Positions 5,444 through 25,154 of a DNA stretch of 29,245 nt are shown in pieces (the stretch's first letter is position 1; each line of letters opens with the position of its first letter). Under the pieces are notes generated by a model. It was not told where the DNA came from and ran no database searches. It was given only the letters and a program-made list of their open reading frames with translations. The DNA comes from a virus. The stretch is taken from IMG/VR virus record IMGVR_UViG_3300024520_000366, positions 1 through 29,245 of that record. One strand, 5' to 3'. The translations under genes were made by a program, and so were the position numbers.

Positions 5444-7612
5444 ATGGCAGACGATAAATTAGCATTAAGTATAGAGATAGAAGCTGATAGGGCGCAGATG
5501 TCTCTAGGCGAACTAGAAGCAGGGTACAAGGGTTTAAGAACACAGCTAGAAGGCACTAATAGAAGAACAGAGGAAGGTCGGAAAGAGTTTAAAAGAATAG
5601 CTACACAAATGGCTCAGACTAGTACCGAGATAAAGAATATGGAACTCGCTTTTGAAGGTTTAGACAAAGAGCAGGTTGCTAGTGAACTCGGAAGCGTTGC
5701 GGGAGGTATTGGAGATGTAACAGCTAGTCTAGTCTTAATGGGTGGCGAGAATGAAACTATAGAGCAAATGGCAGCAAGTATAGAAACTGCTATGGCTATT
5801 TCTATGGGTTTAAAGGGAGCTATAGAGGGGATGAGTTCTGCTCAAAAGCTATGGACTAATGTACTTAAACAAAGTACAGCAATGCAGAAACTTTTAACCT
5901 TTGCTACTAAAGCGTGGGGTAAAGCATTAATAGCAACAGGGATAGGTGCAATAATAGCATTAATAACTACTCTAGTTGTCTATTGGGATGACTTAACGGT
6001 AGCTATTGGACTATCTACTAAAGCGCAAAAGCTAAACAACCAAGTAACTCAAGAAGCTATAGACGCTGTAGGCGACGAAATAAGCGCATCCGATAAACTA
6101 CAAAAGACTTTAAACGATGAGTCTAAAACAAGGGAGGAGAAGAATAAGGCTATTATAGCATTACAAGATGAATACCCTAATTTACTTTCTAACATAGACA
6201 CAGAGAAAGACAGTATAGATGACATAAATAAGGCTTTAGTATTAAACACTAAATTAGTAATGTTAAGGGCAGAGCAGGAAGCTCTAGCATCGTTAAGGGC
6301 TGAACAAACAAAGGAACAATATAAGTCTAGAATAGAGGCGCAGACAGGAGTCAATAAAGGTTTATACGAGGAGGCTTTAGGGCTTGTAACAGTATTTGAA
6401 GCTCAAGACTTTGCTACAGCAGCAACCAATAAATCTATCGCAGCTAATCAAAAGCAAATAGAGGTAATAGATGAGTTAGCCGATGCTAAACAAAAAGAGA
6501 TTGACGCATTACTAGAAGCAGGAGCAGTAGGCGAAGTTGAAATAAAGCAAGAGGAAAAAAGAGAAAAGAAACGAGATGAATGGAAAAAGAAAAAAATTGA
6601 GGATAATAAAAAGCTAATAGAAGATGCTAAAGTCTTAGCAGAATTTGAGGAGGAACAGGCAAGGCTAAAGATAGAACTTATCCAAGACGAGGGAGAACGC
6701 AAAAGGGCAGAGATAGAATATAACACCCAGTTAGAACTTGAGGCTTTAGAAAAGAAAGGGCAATTAACTTTTGACGCTGAAATGCTTATAGCTCAAAAGA
6801 AACATAAAGCACTAGCAGACTTAGAGAAAGAGGAGGATGCTAAAAGGTTTGCATTAGAAAAAGAAGCTCAAGCAAAAAGAGATGAATACGATAAACTACT
6901 ATTTGACGCTAAGGTAGCAAATGAGGTAGAGGAAACAGAAAGACAGAGACTACAGATAGAGGAGGACTTTCAAAACAATATAACAGAATTAGAGGAGCAG
7001 GGTCTATTAACTACAGAGTTAGAGATAGAGTTATTAATGGCTAGAGAAAGTGCTTTAGCAGAAATTAAACAAAAAGCAGAGGATGATGACGAAGAAAGGA
7101 GGCAGAAGAACTACGAAGCAGGTAAGCAATTATTAAGCTCTCTATCTGCTTTAAATAGCGCAGCCTTAGATAATGATTTAAAAAAGGCAGGAAATAACGA
7201 AGCTAAAAAAGAGAAGTTAAGAAAGGCGAGTTTTGAAAGGGAGAAAAAGTTAAATGTAGCAATGGCTTTAATTAATGGCGCTCAAGCATTAACAAGCATA
7301 TTTGCACAGTATCCTAAATTTGATGGAGGGTTTGCAATGGTAGCAGCTTTGGCAAGTTCTGTAATTACAACAGCAGCAACTATAGCTAAGATTAAAGCTA
7401 CTACTTATCAGGGTGGTGGAAGCCCTGCAACTCCTGAAACAACCACAGAGCCTAGACCCGATGGAGCAGGAGCAGGAGGTAACGGAGCATCTATAACTCC
7501 AGTTAGTAACACTAGCACAATACTAGGAACTCAACAGGTATATGTAACTGAAACCGATATAACAGAAACACAAAATAATGTAAGCGTAATAGAAGAAAGC
7601 GCAACTTTTTAA
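5444..7612 (+). CDS. Tail tape measure protein
   Basis: The 722-residue protein has the typical tape measure profile. It is strongly helical, with an N-terminal LEAGYKGLRTQLEGT coiled coil. A hydrophobic, Gly-rich membrane-spanning segment lies at about 161-180 (ALIATGIGAIIALITTLVVY). A long charged coiled coil rich in Glu and Lys spans about 200-560. A second hydrophobic Ala-rich region lies at about 600-650. Tape measures set tail length and enter the host membrane during DNA ejection. By the usual 0.15 nm per residue rule the tail would be about 100 nm. It follows the fibre-like gene after 3 bases. No frameshifted gpG/gpGT-type chaperone gene is recognisable upstream. Confidence 0.9.
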   Translation: MADDKLALSIEIEADRAQMSLGELEAGYKGLRTQLEGTNRRTEEGRKEFKRIATQMAQTSTEIKNMELAFEGLDKEQVASELGSVAGGIGDVTASLVLMGGENETIEQMAASIETAMAISMGLKGAIEGMSSAQKLWTNVLKQSTAMQKLLTFATKAWGKALIATGIGAIIALITTLVVYWDDLTVAIGLSTKAQKLNNQVTQEAIDAVGDEISASDKLQKTLNDESKTREEKNKAIIALQDEYPNLLSNIDTEKDSIDDINKALVLNTKLVMLRAEQEALASLRAEQTKEQYKSRIEAQTGVNKGLYEEALGLVTVFEAQDFATAATNKSIAANQKQIEVIDELADAKQKEIDALLEAGAVGEVEIKQEEKREKKRDEWKKKKIEDNKKLIEDAKVLAEFEEEQARLKIELIQDEGERKRAEIEYNTQLELEALEKKGQLTFDAEMLIAQKKHKALADLEKEEDAKRFALEKEAQAKRDEYDKLLFDAKVANEVEETERQRLQIEEDFQNNITELEEQGLLTTELEIELLMARESALAEIKQKAEDDDEERRQKNYEAGKQLLSSLSALNSAALDNDLKKAGNNEAKKEKLRKASFEREKKLNVAMALINGAQALTSIFAQYPKFDGGFAMVAALASSVITTAATIAKIKATTYQGGGSPATPETTTEPRPDGAGAGGNGASITPVSNTSTILGTQQVYVTETDITETQNNVSVIEESATF

Positions 7613-7623
7613 AATATAAGAAT

Positions 7624-8850
7624 ATGGAAAAGATAGAAGTATTTGAACTGGTAATAGACACCGATGACGAGTCTGGAATTTCACAAATAGCATTTGTAGA
7701 TTTCCCTGCTATTGAGTCTAATTTCTTACAGTTCACAGAACAAAAAGAACATAAATTTAAAATTAAAGACGAGGAGAAAAGGATAGTAGAAGGGTACGCA
7801 ATGATTAGCCAACTGTTAATACCTCGCATAGATGAGAACGGTAAAAAGTTCTTTGTTAAATTCTCAGCTAAAACAATAGAGCAGATAAGAGAAAAGCAGA
7901 GTAGACTAGGTCTTAATAATTGTTTTAACCTTATGCACGATTCAGAGAATAAAGCAGAGGGCGTATATATGTTAGATAACCTTATTATAGATAATGAAAG
8001 AGGAAAGGTAGCACCTAAGGAATTTGAGAAAGTACCAAACGGTTCGCTATGGATAAGTGCGAAAGTTGATAACGATGAAATATGGAACGCAATAAAGGCT
8101 GGAGAGTTCTCGGGATTTAGTGTAGAAGGGTTATTTAAGCAACTAGAAAGCGTTTCAATGGACGAAAATTTAATTAATAAAATAAGGGAAACTATACAAG
8201 ACTTTGAAAAAAGTATAGAGGACAATGTACAACTAAGTAACAAACAAACAATAGATAATATGAGTAAAGAAACTTTAGACAAAGTAAAGAGCTTAATTTT
8301 TGGCGAAGAAACAACAGAGGTAGCTGTAGAGGCAACTCCAGAAGTAACTGAAATTAAGTTAATGGCTGCTGAGTTAGCAGATGGTACAATGGTAAATATA
8401 GACCCTGCTTTAGAAGTTGGTGCAGTAGTTACTGTTGAGGTAGAGGGCGAAGTAGCTCCAATGCCTAACGGAGAATATCCACTAGCAGACGGAACAATAG
8501 TAACTATTTCAGAAGGTGCAATATCTGACATCAAAGAAGTAGAGGCAGAGGAAGAGGAAGTAATGGAAACAGAAGCAACGCCAGTAACTGAAACAGTAAC
8601 AGAGGCTAAGATTAGAAAAATAATCGAAAGCACAGAAACAGTATTCGCTAAGGTTGAAACTTTAGAAACTGAATTAGAAACAGTAAAAGCAGAATTTGCT
8701 AAATACAAAGAGGAAAGCGACACAAAAGAAAAAGCTATGTTTACAGCAGTAGAGGAACTTGCAAAAGAGTCTAGCGTAGCACCTATCAAAAAGAAAAGAA
8801 GCGGAGTTATATCTCCTAAAAAGAAATCAATTTTTACAGTAAACAAATAA
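7624..8850 (+). CDS. XkdF-like prohead serine protease fused to a scaffold-like C-terminus
   Basis: Residues 1-175 match the XkdF/Peptidase_S78_2 pattern. Markers are QIAFVDFPAIES, EGYAMISQLLIPR, the NLMHDS motif with probable catalytic His105, and GEFSGFSVEGLF with probable catalytic Ser166. Residues 213-408 are highly acidic, rich in Glu, Thr and Val, and end in a coiled coil (about 325-385) and a basic tail (KKKRSGVISPKKK). That composition is typical of assembly scaffolds, which are removed by the protease during head maturation. The gene lies directly before the major capsid gene, the standard place for protease and scaffold. An in-frame ATG at codon 213 may start a separate scaffold product. 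Confidence 0.85.
   Translation: MEKIEVFELVIDTDDESGISQIAFVDFPAIESNFLQFTEQKEHKFKIKDEEKRIVEGYAMISQLLIPRIDENGKKFFVKFSAKTIEQIREKQSRLGLNNCFNLMHDSENKAEGVYMLDNLIIDNERGKVAPKEFEKVPNGSLWISAKVDNDEIWNAIKAGEFSGFSVEGLFKQLESVSMDENLINKIRETIQDFEKSIEDNVQLSNKQTIDNMSKETLDKVKSLIFGEETTEVAVEATPEVTEIKLMAAELADGTMVNIDPALEVGAVVTVEVEGEVAPMPNGEYPLADGTIVTISEGAISDIKEVEAEEEEVMETEATPVTETVTEAKIRKIIESTETVFAKVETLETELETVKAEFAKYKEESDTKEKAMFTAVEELAKESSVAPIKKKRSGVISPKKKSIFTVNK
8260..8850 (+). CDS. Possible nested scaffold protein from an internal start
   Basis: An in-frame ATG at codon 213 of the protease gene begins MSKETLDKVKSLIFGEE, which reads like a natural N-terminus. It would give a 196-residue acidic, coiled-coil protein containing only the scaffold part. 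The upstream bases are A-rich (AACAAACAATAGATAAT), the type of leader used elsewhere in this genome. Lambda C/Nu3 is the known precedent for a scaffold made from an internal start in the protease gene. Seen: the in-frame ATG and the abrupt composition change. Inferred: its use in vivo. Confidence 0.35.
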   Translation: MSKETLDKVKSLIFGEETTEVAVEATPEVTEIKLMAAELADGTMVNIDPALEVGAVVTVEVEGEVAPMPNGEYPLADGTIVTISEGAISDIKEVEAEEEEVMETEATPVTETVTEAKIRKIIESTETVFAKVETLETELETVKAEFAKYKEESDTKEKAMFTAVEELAKESSVAPIKKKRSGVISPKKKSIFTVNK

Positions 8851-8865
8851 TAAAAAAAAATAATT

Positions 8866-9810
8866 ATGGCATTCGACGTAACGGCACTTAGTGCATATAT
8901 TGAACAAATGGACTTTCCTTTGATTGCACAGATGCAAGCGACAGGAGGATTAGCAGAAGTAGCTAACATCCAAACAGGAATTAAAGGAAGCTCAAACCTA
9001 CAGTTTTTATCTACAGACGTAGTATTTGGAGCAGATGGCTGCGCTAGAGTAACAGGAGACGCAACAGTATTTTCTCAGCGTACTATTACAGTAGGAGCTA
9101 TTCAAGTAGCAGAGGATTTATGTGTAAAAGCTCTTAACGGATACTGGGCGCAAGTTCTAGTAAAACAAGGAGCAGCAGGAGAGGAAGAATTGCCAATGGA
9201 GATTGAGGCAATTTATATGGAGAAGAAAATGAACGCTCTTAAAAATCAACTTGCGATATCAGACTTTCAAGGAGATTTGCTTAGTGGTGTGAACAACCTA
9301 TCATTTTATGACGGCTTGCTAGTTCAAGTAGATGCTGATGGAACTGTAATAGATGGTAACACAGGAGCAGTAACAGTAGCAACTGGAATTTCTAGCTCTA
9401 ATGTACTAGACATCTTAGATGGTATGTGGGAGTCTATTCCTGACAATATCAGCGAAGCAGATGACTTGTCTTTGTGGGTTCCTACATCAGTATATAAAAA
9501 GTATGTAGTAGCACTTAAGAACGCTAACCTATTTCATTATTCAGGAGATGGCGAGCAAGTTAAACTTTACGGAACAAACGTAGCTTTACGTTCTACTGTT
9601 GGACTACCAAGCGCAGCAGGAACAGAGAGAATGATTTTGGCTAGAGATAGCGGAATAACTATAGGAATGGATGGAGATTCTGACGAGGACGCAATGAGCG
9701 TAAGATTAGACCCAGTATCTGAGAAAAGCATTTTCTTCGATTGTACGTTTAAGCGGGGAATTTCTTATAATTTTGGAAATGAAATTGTAGAATTTACATT
9801 AATTCCTTAA
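8866..9810 (+). CDS. Major capsid protein
   Basis: The 314-residue protein directly follows the protease/scaffold gene and carries a very A-rich leader (AATAAAAAAAAATAATT), consistent with high expression in Bacteroidetes. Its content fits an HK97-fold capsid of the type seen in phages of this phylum. It has an N-terminal helix (TALSAYIEQMDF), an E-loop-like region around VFSQRTITVGAIQVAEDLC, a long spine-like helix (EIEAIYMEKKMNALKNQLA), a P-domain-like LWVPTSVYKKYVVAL, and a C-terminal strand KRGISYNFGNEIVEF. A strong terminator stands 23 bases after its stop. The identification rests on context and overall pattern. Confidence 0.85.
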   Translation: MAFDVTALSAYIEQMDFPLIAQMQATGGLAEVANIQTGIKGSSNLQFLSTDVVFGADGCARVTGDATVFSQRTITVGAIQVAEDLCVKALNGYWAQVLVKQGAAGEEELPMEIEAIYMEKKMNALKNQLAISDFQGDLLSGVNNLSFYDGLLVQVDADGTVIDGNTGAVTVATGISSSNVLDILDGMWESIPDNISEADDLSLWVPTSVYKKYVVALKNANLFHYSGDGEQVKLYGTNVALRSTVGLPSAAGTERMILARDSGITIGMDGDSDEDAMSVRLDPVSEKSIFFDCTFKRGISYNFGNEIVEFTLIP

Positions 9811-14569: not shown

Positions 14570-15406
14570 ATGCACGGATACGGATATGGATATAAAAACA
14601 GCTTAGTAGTAGGTGCAGGAGGAGGAGGAGGCTCTTATCTAGTGGACAACTACTCTCCGTATGTAGCTTATGACTTGCGTAAAATTTCAAGCGCAGCAAC
14701 AAACTCTATTAGAGTAAGAAGGTCAAGCGATAACGCAGAGCAAGATATTGGATTCAACGGAGATGCTTTAGACGAAACAGCATTAACTACATTTTGTAGT
14801 GGTACAGATGGTTTTGTTACTACATTCTATGACCAAAGCGGAAACTCTTTAGATGCTGTAATGACTACAGCCTCTAGCCAACCACGTATTTGCTTAAATG
14901 GCGTTATTGATTTAGTGAATAGCAAACCCGCTATTTTAGGCGATGGTGTTAACGATAGCTTAAGGGTTACGGGGTTAGTTGGTTCTTTGCCTAATACCCA
15001 ATTTGCACTTTATGATAAGGTGGGAACGTCGGGGTATTTTGGGTCATTTGGACTTACAAGTGGTATTACTGGTTTTGGCTTAGGTAGTACAGGCTCAAGA
15101 ATATACCAAAATGGTGGAGCATTCGGACCTTTTTCAGCTTTAAACACACAGGCTTTATTAATGATGAAATCAACAGAGCTAACAACTTCAGACTGGAAAT
15201 TTTATGAGAATGGCAGCGTAATAACTAACAGTGGCGAAACTATAGGAACACTTACCTATAATAGAATAAGTTTATTTGATAGACCTAATAATGTTAGTAG
15301 ATGTAATATGTATCTTCAAACATACTTATTATTTAATTCGGATGAGTCAGTTACGAACAGGGTAGCTATTCAAGACAATATAAACACTTATTATTCAATT
15401 TATTAA
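14570..15406 (+). CDS. Receptor-binding-type protein with arabinofuranosidase B / LamG-like domain
   Basis: After a short Gly-rich N-terminus (VVGAGGGGGSYL) comes a beta-sandwich pattern: YVAYDLRKISSA, IRVRRSSDNAEQDIGF, FVTTFYDQSGNSLDAV, QPRICLNGV and KPAILGDGVNDSL. This series matches the concanavalin-like fold annotated as the alpha-L-arabinofuranosidase B catalytic-like domain in many phage tail proteins. In that family the segment binds or processes surface polysaccharide. The lectin-like half extends to about residue 260. Activity is unproven. The neighbours are a small beta protein before it and a small acidic protein after it, suggesting a host-recognition module distinct from the one near 4.6-5.4 kb. 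Confidence 0.7.
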   Translation: MHGYGYGYKNSLVVGAGGGGGSYLVDNYSPYVAYDLRKISSAATNSIRVRRSSDNAEQDIGFNGDALDETALTTFCSGTDGFVTTFYDQSGNSLDAVMTTASSQPRICLNGVIDLVNSKPAILGDGVNDSLRVTGLVGSLPNTQFALYDKVGTSGYFGSFGLTSGITGFGLGSTGSRIYQNGGAFGPFSALNTQALLMMKSTELTTSDWKFYENGSVITNSGETIGTLTYNRISLFDRPNNVSRCNMYLQTYLLFNSDESVTNRVAIQDNINTYYSIY

Positions 15407-18431: not shown

Positions 18432-18516
18432 GTGCCTAATTAAAATAACTGCTTTAAAATTTTTTTATTCCAAAAGTTCTATTTAATATTGTTGAAAACT
18501 TTAAAACTATAACACT

Positions 18517-18813
18517 ATGAAAAATACAATTTTAAAATTCGGAAAGTACAAAGGGCAAGATTTTTACTCAACTCCAAAGTCATACCAAAATTGGCTAATT
18601 AGTCAAGATTGGTTTAAAGCGCCAAAACAGGCAGCAGATTTATGGAATGTAGTTGTCGTTTTTGAGCGTGAATATGCTATGGCTACTGGTTGCAAAAGCG
18701 AAACATTACATTATAATTTGTCTTTTGAAGATGCTAAAGACCTTAAAGAAGTTGAAAGCTACAATATTTATGACGGGGTAGATTATTATACAGTAACACA
18801 AGTAAAACAATAA
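18517..18813 (+). CDS. Small early protein with FGKYKG (DUF3820/ExoX C-terminal-like) motif, 98 aa
   Basis: Residues 6-30 read LKFGKYKGQDFYSTP followed by SYQNWLISQDWF. This is the pattern of the small DUF3820-like domain also seen at the C-terminus of exodeoxyribonuclease X and in many phage early proteins. The rest (GCKSETLHYNLSFEDAKDLK) is acidic and alpha/beta. Its leader AAACTATAACACTATG is nearly identical to that of the gene at 18873. It lies between two terminators with no obvious promoter of its own. The motif suggests nucleic-acid metabolism but no catalytic residues are visible. Confidence 0.6.
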   Translation: MKNTILKFGKYKGQDFYSTPKSYQNWLISQDWFKAPKQAADLWNVVVVFEREYAMATGCKSETLHYNLSFEDAKDLKEVESYNIYDGVDYYTVTQVKQ

Positions 18814-18851: not shown

Positions 18852-18872
18852 ATTTCTAAAAACTATAAAACT

Positions 18873-19055
18873 ATGGAAACATCTTTTAACAAAATTTGCA
18901 AAAGTATTGCAACACTTAAAACAGAGTCTCAATGTGAATCTATTGAGGCAATGATTAAGACCTTCAAAGATAAGTACAAAAGAGAAGGACACGAGTACGC
19001 TTACATATTGGTAGGCGCTTTATTAATGGCTAAGACTTTAAAATTTAAACAATGA
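18873..19055 (+). CDS. Small helical early protein, 60 aa
   Basis: The frame is open from 18840, but that region is the terminator. The ATG after AAACTATAAAACT gives METSFNKICKSIATLKTESQ, a sensible start. The protein is helical and ends with EYAYILVGALLMAKTLKFKQ, a mildly hydrophobic segment that is probably not a membrane helix. The stop overlaps the next ATG. No function is recognised. Confidence 0.55.
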   Translation: METSFNKICKSIATLKTESQCESIEAMIKTFKDKYKREGHEYAYILVGALLMAKTLKFKQ

Positions 19056-20810: not shown

Positions 20811-21028
20811 GAAAAGAGGATAGATTTAAGCCTTACATTTACAAGGTCTATAATAGTAGTGGAAAGCTAGAGGAGTATAGCAGGTATTACAGAACTAAAA
20901 GAGAAGCTGTATACTGGTATAAGACTCAAGGCAAATGGCTAGAAAAACACCTCAACAGAAAACTAATATTAATCGACACAGATATAAACTTATTCACTTA
21001 TGTACCACGCGCACTACTTAACAGATAA
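20807..21028 (+). CDS. Small basic protein, 73 aa, unknown
   Basis: The protein reads MRKEDRFKPYIYKVYNSSGK, then YYRTKREAVYWYKTQGKWLE. It is rich in Tyr, Lys and Arg and probably binds nucleic acid or another early protein, though no motif proves this. It is coupled to the exonuclease by ATGA, and its last 29 bases overlap the DnaA-like gene in another frame. Confidence 0.55.
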   Translation: MRKEDRFKPYIYKVYNSSGKLEEYSRYYRTKREAVYWYKTQGKWLEKHLNRKLILIDTDINLFTYVPRALLNR

Positions 21029-21398
21029 AGGGGTAAAAGCCTATTTAAGAACAATAGACGAGGAAGTCTATAGAAAATATAAACAAATGTATTTAAATAG
21101 AGATAAGCACATAGAGAATATATGCAGGATAGTATTTAACTATTTTGATGTGCCACTAGAAATAATTAAGAAAAAGAACAGACAAGCTCAGCTAGTAAGA
21201 GCTAAACAATTTACAGCCTATTTTCTAAGGCGAGAAGTAAACAAAACATCGTTAAGCGAAATAGGTAAAATATTTGACCTAGACCACGCTACTATATTAC
21301 ATTCAATAAATAAGATAAAAGGAGTTATAGAAGTAGACAAAGAATATAGAAACTATCACAATGAGTTAAGCTCTAAGATGATGGAATTATATAAATAA
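21000..21398 (+). CDS. Stand-alone DnaA domain IV-like DNA-binding protein
   Basis: Residues about 37-125 match the DnaA C-terminal domain. IENICRIVFNYFDVPLEII is followed by RQAQLVRAKQFTAYFLRREV and then by SLSEIGKIFDLDHATILHS. The last phrase corresponds to the DnaA signature helix-turn-helix (R-D-H-[ST]-[TV] in DnaA; LDHAT here). There is no AAA+ ATPase domain, so it can bind DNA but cannot assemble like DnaA. It may mark the phage origin, compete with host DnaA, or regulate transcription. It sits two genes before the replication initiator. The start is uncertain: 21000 overlaps the previous gene, while an ATG at 21087 would keep the whole domain. Confidence 0.8.
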   Translation: MYHAHYLTDKGVKAYLRTIDEEVYRKYKQMYLNRDKHIENICRIVFNYFDVPLEIIKKKNRQAQLVRAKQFTAYFLRREVNKTSLSEIGKIFDLDHATILHSINKIKGVIEVDKEYRNYHNELSSKMMELYK

Positions 21399-21433: not shown

Positions 21434-21775
21434 ATGGATTTAGAAATAAAAGGAACTCTAACCAAAATAGGAGAAACAGTAACAGGAACTGGAAAGGATG
21501 GCACGCCTTGGCAGAAGCTAACTTACACAGTAGAAACAGACCAAACGTATAACAACCTATACGCTTTTGAAGTATTCTCACAGGAGAAGGTAGAACAATT
21601 TAAGAAGTACAACGTAGTAGGTACTAAGGTAAGCGTAAAATTTAACGTCAGTACAAATGAATGGAAAGGTAAATATTTCACGACATTGCAGTCTTGGAGA
21701 TGCACAAAAGACGATGCTCAGACTACAGAGAAAGAGACTGTACAAGCTACGACAGAGGATGACTTACCCTTTTAG
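21434..21775 (+). CDS. SSB-like OB-fold protein (DUF3127-like)
   Basis: The 113-residue protein starts MDLEIKGTLTKIGETVTGTG and has strands WQKLTYTVET, LYAFEVFSQ, VSVKFNVSTNEWKGKYFTTL and SWRC. This matches the DUF3127 OB-fold family common in Bacteroidetes and their phages. The acidic end, TTEDDLPF, resembles the C-terminal tip by which SSB proteins recruit replication partners. It probably coats single-stranded DNA during phage replication. It follows its own promoter and precedes the structured leader of the initiator gene, consistent with a replication role. Confidence 0.8.
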   Translation: MDLEIKGTLTKIGETVTGTGKDGTPWQKLTYTVETDQTYNNLYAFEVFSQEKVEQFKKYNVVGTKVSVKFNVSTNEWKGKYFTTLQSWRCTKDDAQTTEKETVQATTEDDLPF

Positions 21776-21823
21776 GAAGGTAATAGGTTTATTTTTAAGC
21801 AACGGATACAAAATAAAATAGCT

Positions 21824-21831
21824 TATATTTG
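21824..21831 (+). promoter_or_regulatory. Promoter-like -7 element, TATATTTG
   Basis: A perfect TAnnTTTG match preceded by AAAATAGCT, near-identical to the element before the SSB-like gene. It lies about 150 bases before the replication initiator start and would begin the structured leader RNA. Confidence 0.55.
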
Positions 21832-21835
21832 TACA

Positions 21836-21962
21836 ACTTAGATAAATAATTACAATAGATATATGTAGGCAGGTACAAAAGGTCTACAGTAATATACTAA
21901 TAAATTGAACCCTTTAACGGTTAGTAGAGTTGTACCCTCGAACGCTGTTAAAGGGTTTTTTT
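21836..21962 (+). ncRNA. Structured leader or small RNA before the replication initiator
   Basis: About 125 bases run from a promoter element to a terminator with no useful ORF. A 5-bp hairpin TGTAG/CTACA (21864-21868 with 21884-21888) holds GGTAC and CAAAAGGT in its loop. The 3' part is an 11-bp stem with a 28-base loop. GGTAC at 21872 can pair with GTACC at 21932 in that loop, giving a possible kissing interaction. GTACAACT at 21831 is also complementary to AGTTGTAC at 21928, if it is transcribed. An attenuator, riboregulator or free small RNA are all possible. Confidence 0.5.
21908..21962 (+). terminator. Terminator-like hairpin with an unusually large loop
   Basis: A perfect 11-bp stem (AACCCTTTAAC with GTTAAAGGGTT) encloses a 28-base loop and runs into seven T residues. 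It lies 12 bases before the initiator start codon, so it would control how much transcript reaches the replication genes. Confidence 0.75.
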
Positions 21963-21969
21963 ATACACA
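21961..21969 (+). promoter_or_regulatory. DnaA-box consensus match
   Basis: TTATACACA fits the consensus TTATNCACA exactly and lies 5 bases before the replication initiator start, partly within the T tract of the terminator. Roughly one chance match is expected in a window of this size, so only its location makes it notable. Confidence 0.35.
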
Positions 21970-21974
21970 ATATT

Positions 21975-22610
21975 ATGGCAAAAGACTTACCTTATTTTAA
22001 GTTCTTCTGTTCCGAGTGGAACGATGGAGATATAACCCTAGAAGATTACGAGATACAAGGATTATTTATTAATATCTGCTCCTATTACTGGAGTAGTGGT
22101 TGCGAAATTTCACTACAAAAACTAAAAAAAAGATTCAGAAATCAGGATAAAAACATAAATTATCTGTTAAAAACTGAAATAATTAAGAGAAAAAATAAAA
22201 ATATTTCTATAAATTTTTTAGATGAACAATGGATTGAAAGACAAACCAAAAGCAGTAAGAACTCAGCAGCAGCAAAGGCTAGATGGGATAAGCAAACGCA
22301 ATGCGAACGCAATGCGAACGCATCAGAAATGCAATGCGAAAGTGATGCCATTAAGATAAGAGAAGAAAAGAAAAGAAAAGATAAGATAAGAGAAGAACTT
22401 TTTAGCTCTCAAGTTTGGAAGGAAGGAATAGCTAAACTAAATAAATGTAAATTAATTGAGGTAGAAAAGTTTTTAGTTATATTTTTGGAAGGTCAAGAAT
22501 TAGACGATAATTTAGACAGAGATTTACAGGAGGTTAAAAAACACTTTAGAGCGTGGTTTTCAAAACAAAACTTTAAATCTAATAAACCAAAAAGAACTAT
22601 AGCACTATGA
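21975..22610 (+). CDS. Replication initiator / replisome organiser with internal iterons
   Basis: From the ATG after TATT the protein has 211 residues; an open frame upstream lies inside the terminator. Residues 1-100 (LPYFKFFCSEWNDGDITLED, then GLFINICSYYWSSG, then FLDEQWIERQTK) look like the winged-helix N-terminal domain of phage replication proteins of the Lin1244/DUF4373 type. Residues 108-135 form a low-complexity linker encoded by 11-bp DNA repeats and an A/G-rich tract. Residues 136-211 are helical and may recruit the helicase. It is coupled by ATGA to the primase-helicase gene. The layout mimics lambda O, where the origin lies within the gene. Confidence 0.75.
   Translation: MAKDLPYFKFFCSEWNDGDITLEDYEIQGLFINICSYYWSSGCEISLQKLKKRFRNQDKNINYLLKTEIIKRKNKNISINFLDEQWIERQTKSSKNSAAAKARWDKQTQCERNANASEMQCESDAIKIREEKKRKDKIREELFSSQVWKEGIAKLNKCKLIEVEKFLVIFLEGQELDDNLDRDLQEVKKHFRAWFSKQNFKSNKPKRTIAL
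22298..22341 (+). repeat. Iteron array, four 11-bp units
   Basis: GCAATGCGAA occurs at 22298, 22309 and 22331. A degenerate unit (GCATCAGAAAT) at 22320 keeps the exact 11-base spacing. Eleven is not a multiple of three, so the copies are read in different codon phases (QCE, then NAN, then QCE). The repeat is therefore a DNA-level feature. This suits binding sites for an initiator on one face of the helix. Confidence 0.8.
22353..22397 (+). repeat. A/G-only tract with 15-bp direct repeat next to the iterons
   Basis: AAGATAAGAGAAGAA occurs at 22353 and 22383, exactly 30 bases apart, within a tract of purines broken only by a few T residues. Lying 12 bases after the iterons, it fits a DNA-unwinding element, as in lambda's origin. 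Confidence 0.65.
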
Positions 22611-24370
22611 ACAACTTTATAGAATGGAATACTCTTAACTTTAAAAAGGATAAAGGACAAGAAAAGATACGCTGTCCTGAGTGCGATAACTCTAGGAGCG
22701 ACAAAACAGACAAGAGCTTACAAATTAATCACAATGGAGGATATGGTAAATGTCATTACTGTAGTGCTTTAACTTTTAGAGATAAGAACGAATACGAGCC
22801 AAAGGTAATACTACCTAGTCAAGACTGGCAGAACTTTACTAAACTATCTGAGGGGATGGTTAAATGGGTAGAGAATGAAAGAGCAATAGGACAGCACTCA
22901 CTTATTCAGTTAGGAATAACAGAAGAAAAACAATACCAACCACAACTAAAAAAAGAATGCAGTAATATTGTATTTAATTATTTTGAGGGCGATACTGTAG
23001 TAAACAAAAAATATAGGTCAGCTCAAAAGAACTTTACACAAACAGCAGGAGGTAAAAGCATATTCTATAATATTAATTCTGTAGTAGGAGAGTCTGAGGT
23101 TTGGATAGTTGAGGGTGAATTTGATGTTTTAGCTCTGCATCATATAGGTATAAAGTCAGCTATAAGCGTTCCTAATGGAGCAAATGACAATGACGAATAC
23201 TGGAAGAACTCAGAGAAGTATTTAAAAGATGTAAAAAAGTTTATTATAGGAGTAGACAACGACACAAAAGGAAACGAGCTAAAGGATAAAATAGCACATA
23301 GACTAGGTAGGTGGAGATGTGAATATGTAGAATGGAAAAACAAAGACGCAAACGGAGATTTACAAAAAGGAGTATTAAAACAATCTGTAGTAAATAGAAA
23401 TAAATTCCCAGTAAGTGGAACGGTTACTATTTCAGATTTAAAAAATGAAATATTTGACTTTTATAATAACGGACTACCCGAAACAATCAAACCAAAAGCA
23501 GAATGTTTTAAAGATATAAACAGCTTTTTTAGTTTAATGCGTGGACATCTTTGTACAGTTACAGGAATACCCTCACACGGTAAGTCTGAGTTTACAGAAT
23601 GGTATGTTATGAACTTAGTAAAAGACTTTAAAATGAAAGCTAGTTTCTTTACTCCTGAACACGCACCATTTGCACTACATCAAACTAGGTTTATTCCTAA
23701 AGCAATAGGAAAACCATTTTGGAAAAGTCAAGACAATAGAATAACTCCTGCGGATATTGAAAGGTATGTAGCTTGGGCAGACCAAAAAATATACTATACT
23801 ATGCCAAACTCAGGAGAGGTCGCAGACTGGAATTGGATACTAGATACTTTTAAACAGCAGATGTTTAGCTATGGAGTAGATATATTTGTTATAGATGCTT
23901 TTAACAAAGTAGTCGGAGCATCTGACAAAAAAGATATAGACGCAGTATTAACTAGGCTTACAATGTTTGCACAAACTAACAATGTTATAATAATGTTAAT
24001 AGCACACCCTACAAAGATGCGAAAGGAGGAGGATAATACTTTTAGCGTTCCTACGCTCTACGATGTTTCAGGTAGTGCAGACTTTAGAAATCAGACTCAC
24101 GATGGTTATGTAATACATAGAGACTTTAACGATAACTCTGTAATGTTTCAAAACCTAAAGACTAAGTATAATTTTCAAGGCGATATAGGTAAGAATTGCT
24201 TTTTAAATTATGACATACCTACAGGCAGATATTATACAGCAGGGGGTTACGTTCCTACATTTGATTTAACAAAAGATTTTGATAGTCAAGAAAAACAACT
24301 ATCTTTAAAACCAAACGCAGACTTTGACTTTTTACCTAATGAGGATGAGCTAGAAGATTGCCCATTTTAA
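22607..24370 (+). CDS. Primase-helicase, T7 gp4 / Twinkle type
   Basis: The 587-residue protein combines a zinc finger (CPEC at 23-26 and CHYC at 49-52), a TOPRIM primase domain and a RecA-like hexameric helicase. The primase region has the acidic VEGEFD motif at 168-173 and VDNDT at 216-220. The helicase has Walker A TGIPSHGKSE at 319-328, Walker B VDIFVIDA at 424-431, and motif 3-like IMLIAHPTK at 462-470. It primes and unwinds DNA at the phage replication fork. The start overlaps the initiator stop (ATGA), so the two are made together. The short acidic C-terminus (EDELEDCPF) could contact a polymerase. Confidence 0.93.
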   Translation: MNNFIEWNTLNFKKDKGQEKIRCPECDNSRSDKTDKSLQINHNGGYGKCHYCSALTFRDKNEYEPKVILPSQDWQNFTKLSEGMVKWVENERAIGQHSLIQLGITEEKQYQPQLKKECSNIVFNYFEGDTVVNKKYRSAQKNFTQTAGGKSIFYNINSVVGESEVWIVEGEFDVLALHHIGIKSAISVPNGANDNDEYWKNSEKYLKDVKKFIIGVDNDTKGNELKDKIAHRLGRWRCEYVEWKNKDANGDLQKGVLKQSVVNRNKFPVSGTVTISDLKNEIFDFYNNGLPETIKPKAECFKDINSFFSLMRGHLCTVTGIPSHGKSEFTEWYVMNLVKDFKMKASFFTPEHAPFALHQTRFIPKAIGKPFWKSQDNRITPADIERYVAWADQKIYYTMPNSGEVADWNWILDTFKQQMFSYGVDIFVIDAFNKVVGASDKKDIDAVLTRLTMFAQTNNVIIMLIAHPTKMRKEEDNTFSVPTLYDVSGSADFRNQTHDGYVIHRDFNDNSVMFQNLKTKYNFQGDIGKNCFLNYDIPTGRYYTAGGYVPTFDLTKDFDSQEKQLSLKPNADFDFLPNEDELEDCPF

Positions 24371-24393: not shown

Positions 24394-24789
24394 ATGGATG
24401 AAAAATTAACTATTGATTTAATAAACAAGGAATTTAAAACAGACCTTGCTTTAGTTAATTATGAGTTTTGTGATTATGACGCAGAAGATAAAAACTACAT
24501 TGTTGAGGTAAAGAATAGAAAAGAGTTTTACAAAGAAAAATTAATAGAGTGCATAAAGTTGTTTAAAAACTTTCAAAACTCACAGATTAAAAACAAAGAT
24601 TTTTTATACATTGTAACAGATGAGCAAGGGGTTTATATTTTTAACATATCAAAAAAGATAGATACAATAATCTCAAGTAAAATATATAAAACACTACAGC
24701 CTGAAACAACAGAATTTTATAAGACAAAGAAAATAATTAAATACGTTTACTTTTTAGATGTGAAACTTTCAAAACAAATAAAACTATGA
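24394..24789 (+). CDS. Small PD-(D/E)XK-like protein, 131 aa
   Basis: The start is taken at the ATG after ACAAATAAAACT; an upstream in-frame ATG lies inside the helicase gene. The protein reads MDEKLTIDLINKEFKTDLAL with FCDYDAEDKNYIVEVKNRKE, which fits an Asp27-Glu38-x-Lys40 site of the PD-(D/E)XK fold. A following helix (EKLIECIKLFKNF) and strand (FLYIVTDEQGVYIFNI) complete a minimal core. No close family is recognised. A nuclease or structure-specific endonuclease for replication intermediates is likely, but the site assignment is inferred. Confidence 0.55.
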   Translation: MDEKLTIDLINKEFKTDLALVNYEFCDYDAEDKNYIVEVKNRKEFYKEKLIECIKLFKNFQNSQIKNKDFLYIVTDEQGVYIFNISKKIDTIISSKIYKTLQPETTEFYKTKKIIKYVYFLDVKLSKQIKL

Positions 24790-25154
24790 AACTATTAAAA
24801 CAATGCTCCTTAGATGGAGTAACAAGACGAAAAGACAAGAGCTTAAAAATTTCTTTTATTACAACTATGGAGCAATCCAGTAATGAATTAATGGAAATAG
24901 ATAAACTACTAGACACAAACGGAATATTATACTACAAAGATAGCGAAGGACTTTCTACAGATGAAATAAACCAAATAGATAAGGTTGTACTAGACAAACC
25001 TAACGGAAAGACTCAGAGCGAAAGACTAAGAAATGTATTATATTTATATTGCAAACAGAAGATAGGTAAAGAGCCGACAAAAGAACAGTTTGCTGAGTTC
25101 TATCAAAAGTACACAGAGAAGTATATACAGTATATTAAAGACCAGTTAAATTAA
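24786..25154 (+). CDS. Conserved phage protein next to replication genes, 122 aa
   Basis: The protein starts MKLLKQCSLDGVTRRKDKSL. Its C-terminal half holds KPNGKTQSERLRNVLYLYCK and EFYQKYTEKYIQYIKDQLN. The K-[ST]-x-S-[EQ]-R-L-R-x-V-L phrase followed by an FxxFYxxxxExxI helix is widespread in small proteins of siphophages near replication genes. To my knowledge it has no established function. It is coupled at both ends (ATGA before, TAATG after). Its start region AAACTATGAAA is complementary to the putative small RNA at 18.37 kb. Confidence 0.6.
   Translation: MKLLKQCSLDGVTRRKDKSLKISFITTMEQSSNELMEIDKLLDTNGILYYKDSEGLSTDEINQIDKVVLDKPNGKTQSERLRNVLYLYCKQKIGKEPTKEQFAEFYQKYTEKYIQYIKDQLN

Follow-up and report, generated by a model that had tools for sequence, protein, structure and literature searches.

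A putative replication origin within its own initiator gene in a Bacteroidota-like phage, with repeats whose core is associated with an initiator peptide

With a probability that we put at roughly 0.8, the segment at 22297-22397 of the window (the whole stretch of DNA analyzed here, a linear IMG/VR virus record of 29,245 bp) is a phage replication origin located within the gene of its own initiator. We observed direct repeats that are conserved as DNA while their core changes, that precede an A/G tract, that are exchanged jointly with the DNA-binding part of the initiator and that carry a core associated with a short peptide of the same protein; origin activity, binding, melting and helicase loading are inferred. 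An origin inside the initiator gene had been proposed in a preliminary description of this DNA, and the order of binding domain, iterons, tract, C-terminus and helicase in the window and its relatives, together with the periodicity at the DNA level, supports that reading. Beyond it, the design also spans other initiator families and phyla, and the peptide-iteron association is new to the present analysis. The initiator/origin family is apparently undescribed. The relevant features are the following:

21000-21398, upstream of the initiator gene: DnaA domain-IV-only protein (Bac_DnaA_C 2.8e-17)
21434-21775, plus strand: single-strand DNA-binding protein (DUF3127; phrog_4932 1.5e-22, PF11325 1.2e-19)
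21975-22610, plus strand: initiator gene, 211 aa, ATG start (the mechanical open reading frame starts at TTG 21930)
22047-22211, plus strand: part coding for the winged helix, residues 25-79 (AlphaFold model, block pLDDT about 90)
22212-22289, plus strand: part coding for the post-wing helix (helix 80-112 in the AlphaFold model)
22297-22341, plus strand: iteron array, four 11-bp units with core CGCAATGCG (from the repeats and lag-11 conservation in relatives)
22342-22352, plus strand: degenerate fifth unit with boundary GTGATGCCATT towards the tract (from sequence comparison)
22353-22397, plus strand: A/G tract, candidate DNA-unwinding element, 76% A+T, 42/45 purine, coding for KIREEKKRKDKIREE
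22398-22610, plus strand: part coding for the C-terminal domain (weak DUF7833)
22607-24370, plus strand: primase-helicase (Toprim + DnaB_C), overlapping the initiator stop by 4 bases

The repeats, the tract and their genomic setting

In a PHROG search the initiator matched phrog_29280 (1e-17) and phrog_9327, a 'primosomal protein' (7.9e-5). The winged helix claimed for it earlier is predicted by the AlphaFold model (H25-40, H47-53, H58-66, E71-73 and E76-78), in which the class peptide SAAAKARW occupies residues 96-103 at the end of the post-wing helix. DUF7833 is present in 9 of 29 family members according to Pfam, and PDB searches by sequence and by fold returned nothing significant, the best match to the window model being the DnaD N-domain at E 0.3. 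Upstream of the initiator gene are encoded an ERF annealing protein, an exonuclease, the DnaA domain-IV-only protein and the single-strand-binding protein. The named relatives have Flavobacterium, Cellulophaga and Leeuwenhoekiella as hosts. The phage type is Bacteroidota-like, in keeping with its initial description as Bacteroidetes-type.

Other observations concern the remainder of the window. The gap 5' of the initiator gene (21820-21965) contains a promoter-like box, TATATTTG, and, after it, a strong hairpin resembling a terminator, GAACCCTTTAACGG...GCTGTTAAAGGGTTTTTTT (fold z -3.1). This region is a possible leader attenuator or small RNA; an Rfam search of the window, hairpin region included, gave no match. 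The words AAAACTAT/AAACTATG recur near gene starts at 18495-18522, 18859-18874 and 24781-24799, and a minus-strand open frame of 485 codons (7512-8969) lies opposite the gene at 7624-8850, probably as a by-product of codon composition.

Three copies of GCAATGCGAA are found at 22298-22307, 22309-22318 and 22331-22340, and a degenerate unit, GCATCAGAAA, at 22320-22329. The preliminary description had reported four 11-bp units with exact spacing and shifting codon phase, and this is what we find: unit starts are spaced exactly 11 bp apart and fall in codon phases 2, 1, 0 and 2. The core CGCAATGCG is itself a 4+1+4 inverted repeat (CGCA-A-TGCG). In the whole window, GCAATGCGAA is the sole non-simple 10-mer with three occurrences inside 60 bp; it is found nowhere else in the 29 kb with one mismatch allowed, and no such 10-mer triple arose in dinucleotide shuffles of the window (0/200). 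The lag-11 match of the window itself gave P = 0.004 against synonymous recoding of the same protein. The window showed no second array. The junction between iterons and tract, ATGC(C/T)AT(A/T)AA, is kept in several relatives.

The A/G tract adjoins the iterons, and its role in melting is inferred. AAGATAAGAGAAGAA occurs at 22353 and again at 22383, which bears out the purine tract and 30-base repeat noted previously, but this phase is not independent of the KIREE protein repeat because 30 is a multiple of 3. Another stretch with 42/45 purines is located at about 6549 in a tail tape-measure-like gene; the tract by itself is therefore not distinctive in the window and was dropped as a distinctive feature on its own. 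In relatives, tract codons lean to purines for Arg (AGA 117/118 vs 211/405 elsewhere), Ile (ATA 40/41 vs 355/812) and Lys (AAG 82/154 vs 371/1375), while the Glu codons of relatives' tracts show no purine bias. The tract sequence varies by group (AAGAGAAGAG, AAAGGAAAGT, ACCAATACCAAT, ACCAGACACCAG) and is not strongly A+T-rich in GC-rich relatives. On the coding strand it lies 3' of the iterons in the window relatives as well as in the Lin1244_N and DUF1376 groups.

Binding sites within a regulator's own gene could also serve autoregulation, in which case binding of the initiator to the iterons would merely repress or time the initiator gene and the helicase operon. The array does sit in a replication gene cluster, and the iterons of plasmid initiators often double as operators. 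We nevertheless consider an operator in place of an origin unlikely, as the array is positioned about 320 bp into the coding sequence, at a distance from the promoter- and terminator-like elements (21820-21970), and as an operator has no need of the composition-biased tract behind it. Moreover, where this layout occurs in lambda O and in SPP1 gene 38, it constitutes an origin (PMC7466680, PMC6316719).

Conservation of the array as DNA and exchange of the cassette

We retrieved 35 homologous loci of the initiator gene with the whole protein and further loci via alignment. In 59 non-redundant relatives, the self-match of the 60 bases 5' of the tract was compared with that of synonymous recodings of the same peptides. 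The lag-11 match was 0.481 vs 0.350 after recoding (z 18.5), with harmonics at lag 22 (z 10.9) and lag 33 (z 7.9). Lag 11 was the best lag within the range 7-20 in 44/59 relatives and reached P <= 0.05 in 45/59; a first set of 27 relatives had given z 14.0. Since relatives are not independent, these z values are descriptive. The repeated word differs by group (CGCAATGCG, TGTTCAACA, ACCGAA, AACCTAA, AGCAATGCT or CCACCCTTAAA), and three relatives carry 10-bp ACAACC units instead. The same spacing with differing words is expected if the spacing is selected. An alignment of homologues at the DNA versus the protein level had been recommended as a check, and it shows the 11-bp periodicity kept as DNA and the linker protein not kept. 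Against the origin reading, no clear linker array was found in some family members, namely L078, L094, L097 and the non-RW DUF1376 group. The cumulative GC skew, likewise recommended, rises monotonically in the window, and its minimum is not at the array in two complete relatives; in Flavobacterium phage morran9-1 the minimum is at 9399 and the array at 14890. GC skew was dropped as origin evidence.

Could the DNA repeats be a mere by-product of a low-complexity charged linker grown by slippage? The tract codes for IREEKKRKDKIREE, and charged linkers of a similar kind are common among relatives. Yet the units pass through all three frames, the lag-11 signal exceeds synonymous recoding at the above z of 18.5, and in one Lin1244_N relative (L261) the iteron units share a GC-to-AC change while the amino acids change, which would represent an apparent concerted change of the core. 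Frame, recoding and L261 data refute a protein-level repeat for the iterons, and we give this explanation next to no credence.

Comparison with close relatives revealed exchange of the cassette. In L009, the gene for the single-strand-binding protein is 94% identical to that of the window and the next intergenic region 92%, followed by about 50% identity from roughly codon 8 across the iterons to mid-tract. Matches are back at 22370 within the tract (20/20), and identity is 99% across the C-terminus and the primase. L010 and L011 present the same pattern. The iterons of the exchanged cassette have an 11-bp word of their own (AAGCAA). As judged from these alignments, the winged helix or binding domain and the iterons were replaced jointly while the C-terminus stayed with its helicase, the C-terminal domain thus being exchanged independently of winged helix and iterons. 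Array and tract might accordingly be kept mainly as short homologies for the exchange of initiator modules, given that the swap breakpoint falls in the tract and that the phage encodes an ERF annealing protein. Such a recombination joint does not account for the fixed 11-bp spacing with different cores or for the peptide association described below, and it can be a side effect of an origin; as the main role of the segment we regard it as very unlikely.

Wider initiator families and the peptide-core association

The exact 20-mer GCAATGCGAMCGCAATGCGA is present in at least 119 IMG/VR stretches, against a chance expectation that we estimate at well below one, assuming about 4e10 bases. Most of the matches listed lie in the linker of DUF1376 or Lin1244_N proteins, and the contigs range from 31 to 68% G+C. 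The same design is thus found in phages of very different bacteria. Sets selected by their N-domain gave a lag-11 z of 13.7 for Lin1244_N (31 sequences) and 13.0 for DUF1376 (44), but both lean towards the 20-mer because their seeds came from its matches. The DUF1376 loci were scanned with a five-sequence alignment, an 18-sequence one being too diverse. Microbacterium phage BLAST matches to the iteron (E 4) were rejected as chance, the gene beside the capsid genes not being an initiator.

DUF1376/YdaU proteins (PF07120) resemble the window protein in secondary-structure order, in the peptide that ends the post-wing helix and in the linker array, and the TGTTCAACA/AGKASA class is found in both groups. 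AlphaFold models of the window protein and of a DUF1376 protein have the same order, H-H-H-H-E-E-long H, SAxxRW closes the equivalent post-wing helix in the latter, and the window model matched a DUF1376 protein in BFVD at 2.5e-6. Nevertheless, PF07120 is absent at E<=0.01 from the window protein and 28 aligned relatives (29 members), and the match of the nearest relative that has one, morran9-1, is below the cut-off (E 0.0013, 19.5 bits vs gathering 30.1). The links between window and DUF1376 are limited to phrog_9327, the fold and this sub-threshold match. Lin1244_N proteins (PF14297) share with the window the CGCAATGCG iterons, SAxxRW and the A/G-rich tract, but their N-domain has no detectable sequence similarity to that of the window, whose protein did not match PF14297 by sequence or profile. 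Compared by profile, the window family showed no similarity to DUF1376 or to Lin1244_N, and we therefore claim no family membership for the window protein.

Several annotated relatives are named replication initiation or primosomal proteins. Genes for a helicase, primase-helicase or helicase loader (DnaC-like) are found 3' of the initiator in the window and in phages of Vibrio, Acinetobacter, Flavobacterium, Cellulophaga, Porphyromonas and Enterococcus. YdaU of E. coli, a product of the Rac prophage, belongs to the DUF1376 group and to the AGKASA class, and matches phrog_678 ('replication initiation O-like'). Its own repeats are weaker, with about 12-bp spacing and a lag-12 P of only 0.06. The Rac prophage carries an active origin, oriJ (PMC3945230), the mapped position of which we did not find in the literature accessible for checking. 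By blastn, no CGCAATGCG array was found in E. coli genomes; E. coli has the TGTTCAACA class. The ydaU gene of E. coli 7_26_9A breaks off near the array, and an IS3-type element (IS600) is annotated directly after it. Our literature searches returned no paper joining Lin1244 with replication and none joining ydaU, ydaV and replication, and the papers found to mention DUF1376 are, to judge by their titles and abstracts, not about origins.

Across the groups, the stretch that follows the wing sorts into peptide classes that match the iteron core: SAxxRW with CGCAATGCG in 59/67 cases, AGKASA with TGTTCAACA in 18/18 (E. coli YdaU included), GGRPK with ACCGAA or AACCTAA in 12/12 and AGxxGG with AGCAATGCT in 7/7. 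Within DUF1376 only, 24 proteins have both SAxxRW and CGCAATGCG, 2 have SAxxRW without the array, none has the array without the peptide and 18 have neither. As the peptide classes were defined after looking, they were tested by two scans on DNA patterns alone, with near-duplicates collapsed and all figures given among the matches listed. The CGCAATGCG scan yielded 51 cases with SAxxRW, 0 with AGKASA and 15 with neither; the TTCAAC scan yielded 51 with AGKASA (AGKASAxxR), 0 with SAxxRW, 2 with both and 10 with neither (51:0 vs 0:51, Fisher 5e-30). Several of the 'neither' cases deviate only slightly from the motif (AALSRW, AAKSRW) or were read in antisense. As the CGCAATGCG scan had also served to notice SAxxRW, the TTCAAC scan alone is fully out of sample; the statistics carry no phylogenetic correction.

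This association suggests a simple recognition code, although contacts between peptide and bases have not been shown and peptide and array could instead be merely physically linked, without direct recognition. In its full form, to which we assign an even chance, the code would be transferable: a peptide of some 8 residues closing the post-wing helix would read the core of the 11-bp iterons a few codons downstream in the same gene, and this self-recognizing cassette would move between initiators across phyla, spanning several winged-helix initiator families without detectable sequence similarity. The proposed pairs are SAxxRW-CGCAATGCG, AGKASAxxR-TGTTCAACA, GGRPKK-ACCGAA or AACCTAA, and AGxxGG-AGCAATGCT, with AGKKGA-CCACCCTTAAA and GGAPKG-10-bp ACAACC units as further ones.

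Some loci depart from the common layout. The array lies within the winged-helix coding region in L558, and L605 and L613 have a CCACCCTT array on the opposite strand; array position is therefore not fixed. Five DUF1376 loci (L432, L438, L443, L457 and L475) lack both SAxxRW and the CGCAATGCG array; further on, they contain repeats of the PATAPATPAT type (CCTGCAACG words), which may belong to a different class of array.

The core also bears on whether the sites are meant for another protein, either the DnaA domain-IV-only protein or the host DnaA. A domain-IV protein (2.8e-17) is indeed encoded nearby, but most array-bearing relatives have no such neighbor within the flanking sequence examined (at most 4 kb, in some cases less), and it is the initiator's own peptide that the core follows, which makes a DnaA-type binder highly improbable. 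The domain-IV protein was rejected as the binder, not being conserved with the array in the flanks examined. In these flanks it is present in close relatives, weakly in L026-L028 and in no others.

Likeness to known origins and implications

Iteron plasmids with a winged-helix Rep carry, like the window, short head-to-tail repeats beside an A+T-rich element, but plasmid iterons are usually longer and located outside the rep gene, and no Rep domain was detected in the window protein. A further parallel is lambda gene O, whose middle part holds the iterons and the A+T-rich tract that form the origin (PMC7466680). The window shares with lambda and the lambdoid/Stx phages the order of binding domain, origin, C-terminal domain and helicase-loading gene, as well as modular exchange. 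Similarly, in E. coli FHI_NMBU_11 a DUF1376-DnaT fusion lies directly 5' of a gene annotated as replication protein P, so that a DUF1376-group member adjoins lambda P. In contrast, lambda has iterons of about 19 bp (oligonucleotides in PMC7466680) and the window has head-to-tail ones of 11 bp, and the core in window relatives varies and follows the peptide class. No Pfam match to lambda O was found for the window protein or its aligned relatives. In the Bacillus subtilis phage SPP1, gp38 binds direct repeats within its own gene beside an A+T-rich unwinding element (oriL), and genes for a helicase loader and a DnaB-type helicase come after gene 38 (PMC6316719). In addition, SPP1 possesses oriR, a second copy at a distance of about 13 kb, for which no counterpart was seen in the window. 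Of the features of the lambda O/SPP1 design, the window has repeats in the initiator gene, their conservation at the DNA level and an adjacent Toprim/DnaB_C gene; its adjoining A/G tract is a candidate for the unwinding element, and binding and origin activity are inferred. By analogy, it would work like the lambda O and SPP1 gp38 origins without belonging by sequence to the lambda O family.

In the mechanism that we propose for this origin, several initiator molecules would occupy neighboring 11-bp iterons on one helix face, 11 bp being about one turn, with the winged helix and the following helix recognizing the iteron core. The assembled complex would then strain and open the neighboring A/G tract, which is rich in A+T and asymmetric between the strands, and the C-terminal domain would deliver the primase-helicase encoded immediately downstream.

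The origins of most phages are unmapped, and a linker motif that is legible from sequence alone would give candidate origins for large phage groups. The motif is found in at least 100 environmental phage contigs and in E. coli YdaU, and would explain the odd repeated linkers (NANAMRTQCERNA, REEKRREEK, KESKVKESK) of 'primosomal' and 'DUF1376' proteins. The peptide-iteron association makes initiator specificity directly testable, and the E. coli K-12 member provides an accessible model, given the known active origin (oriJ) of the Rac prophage.
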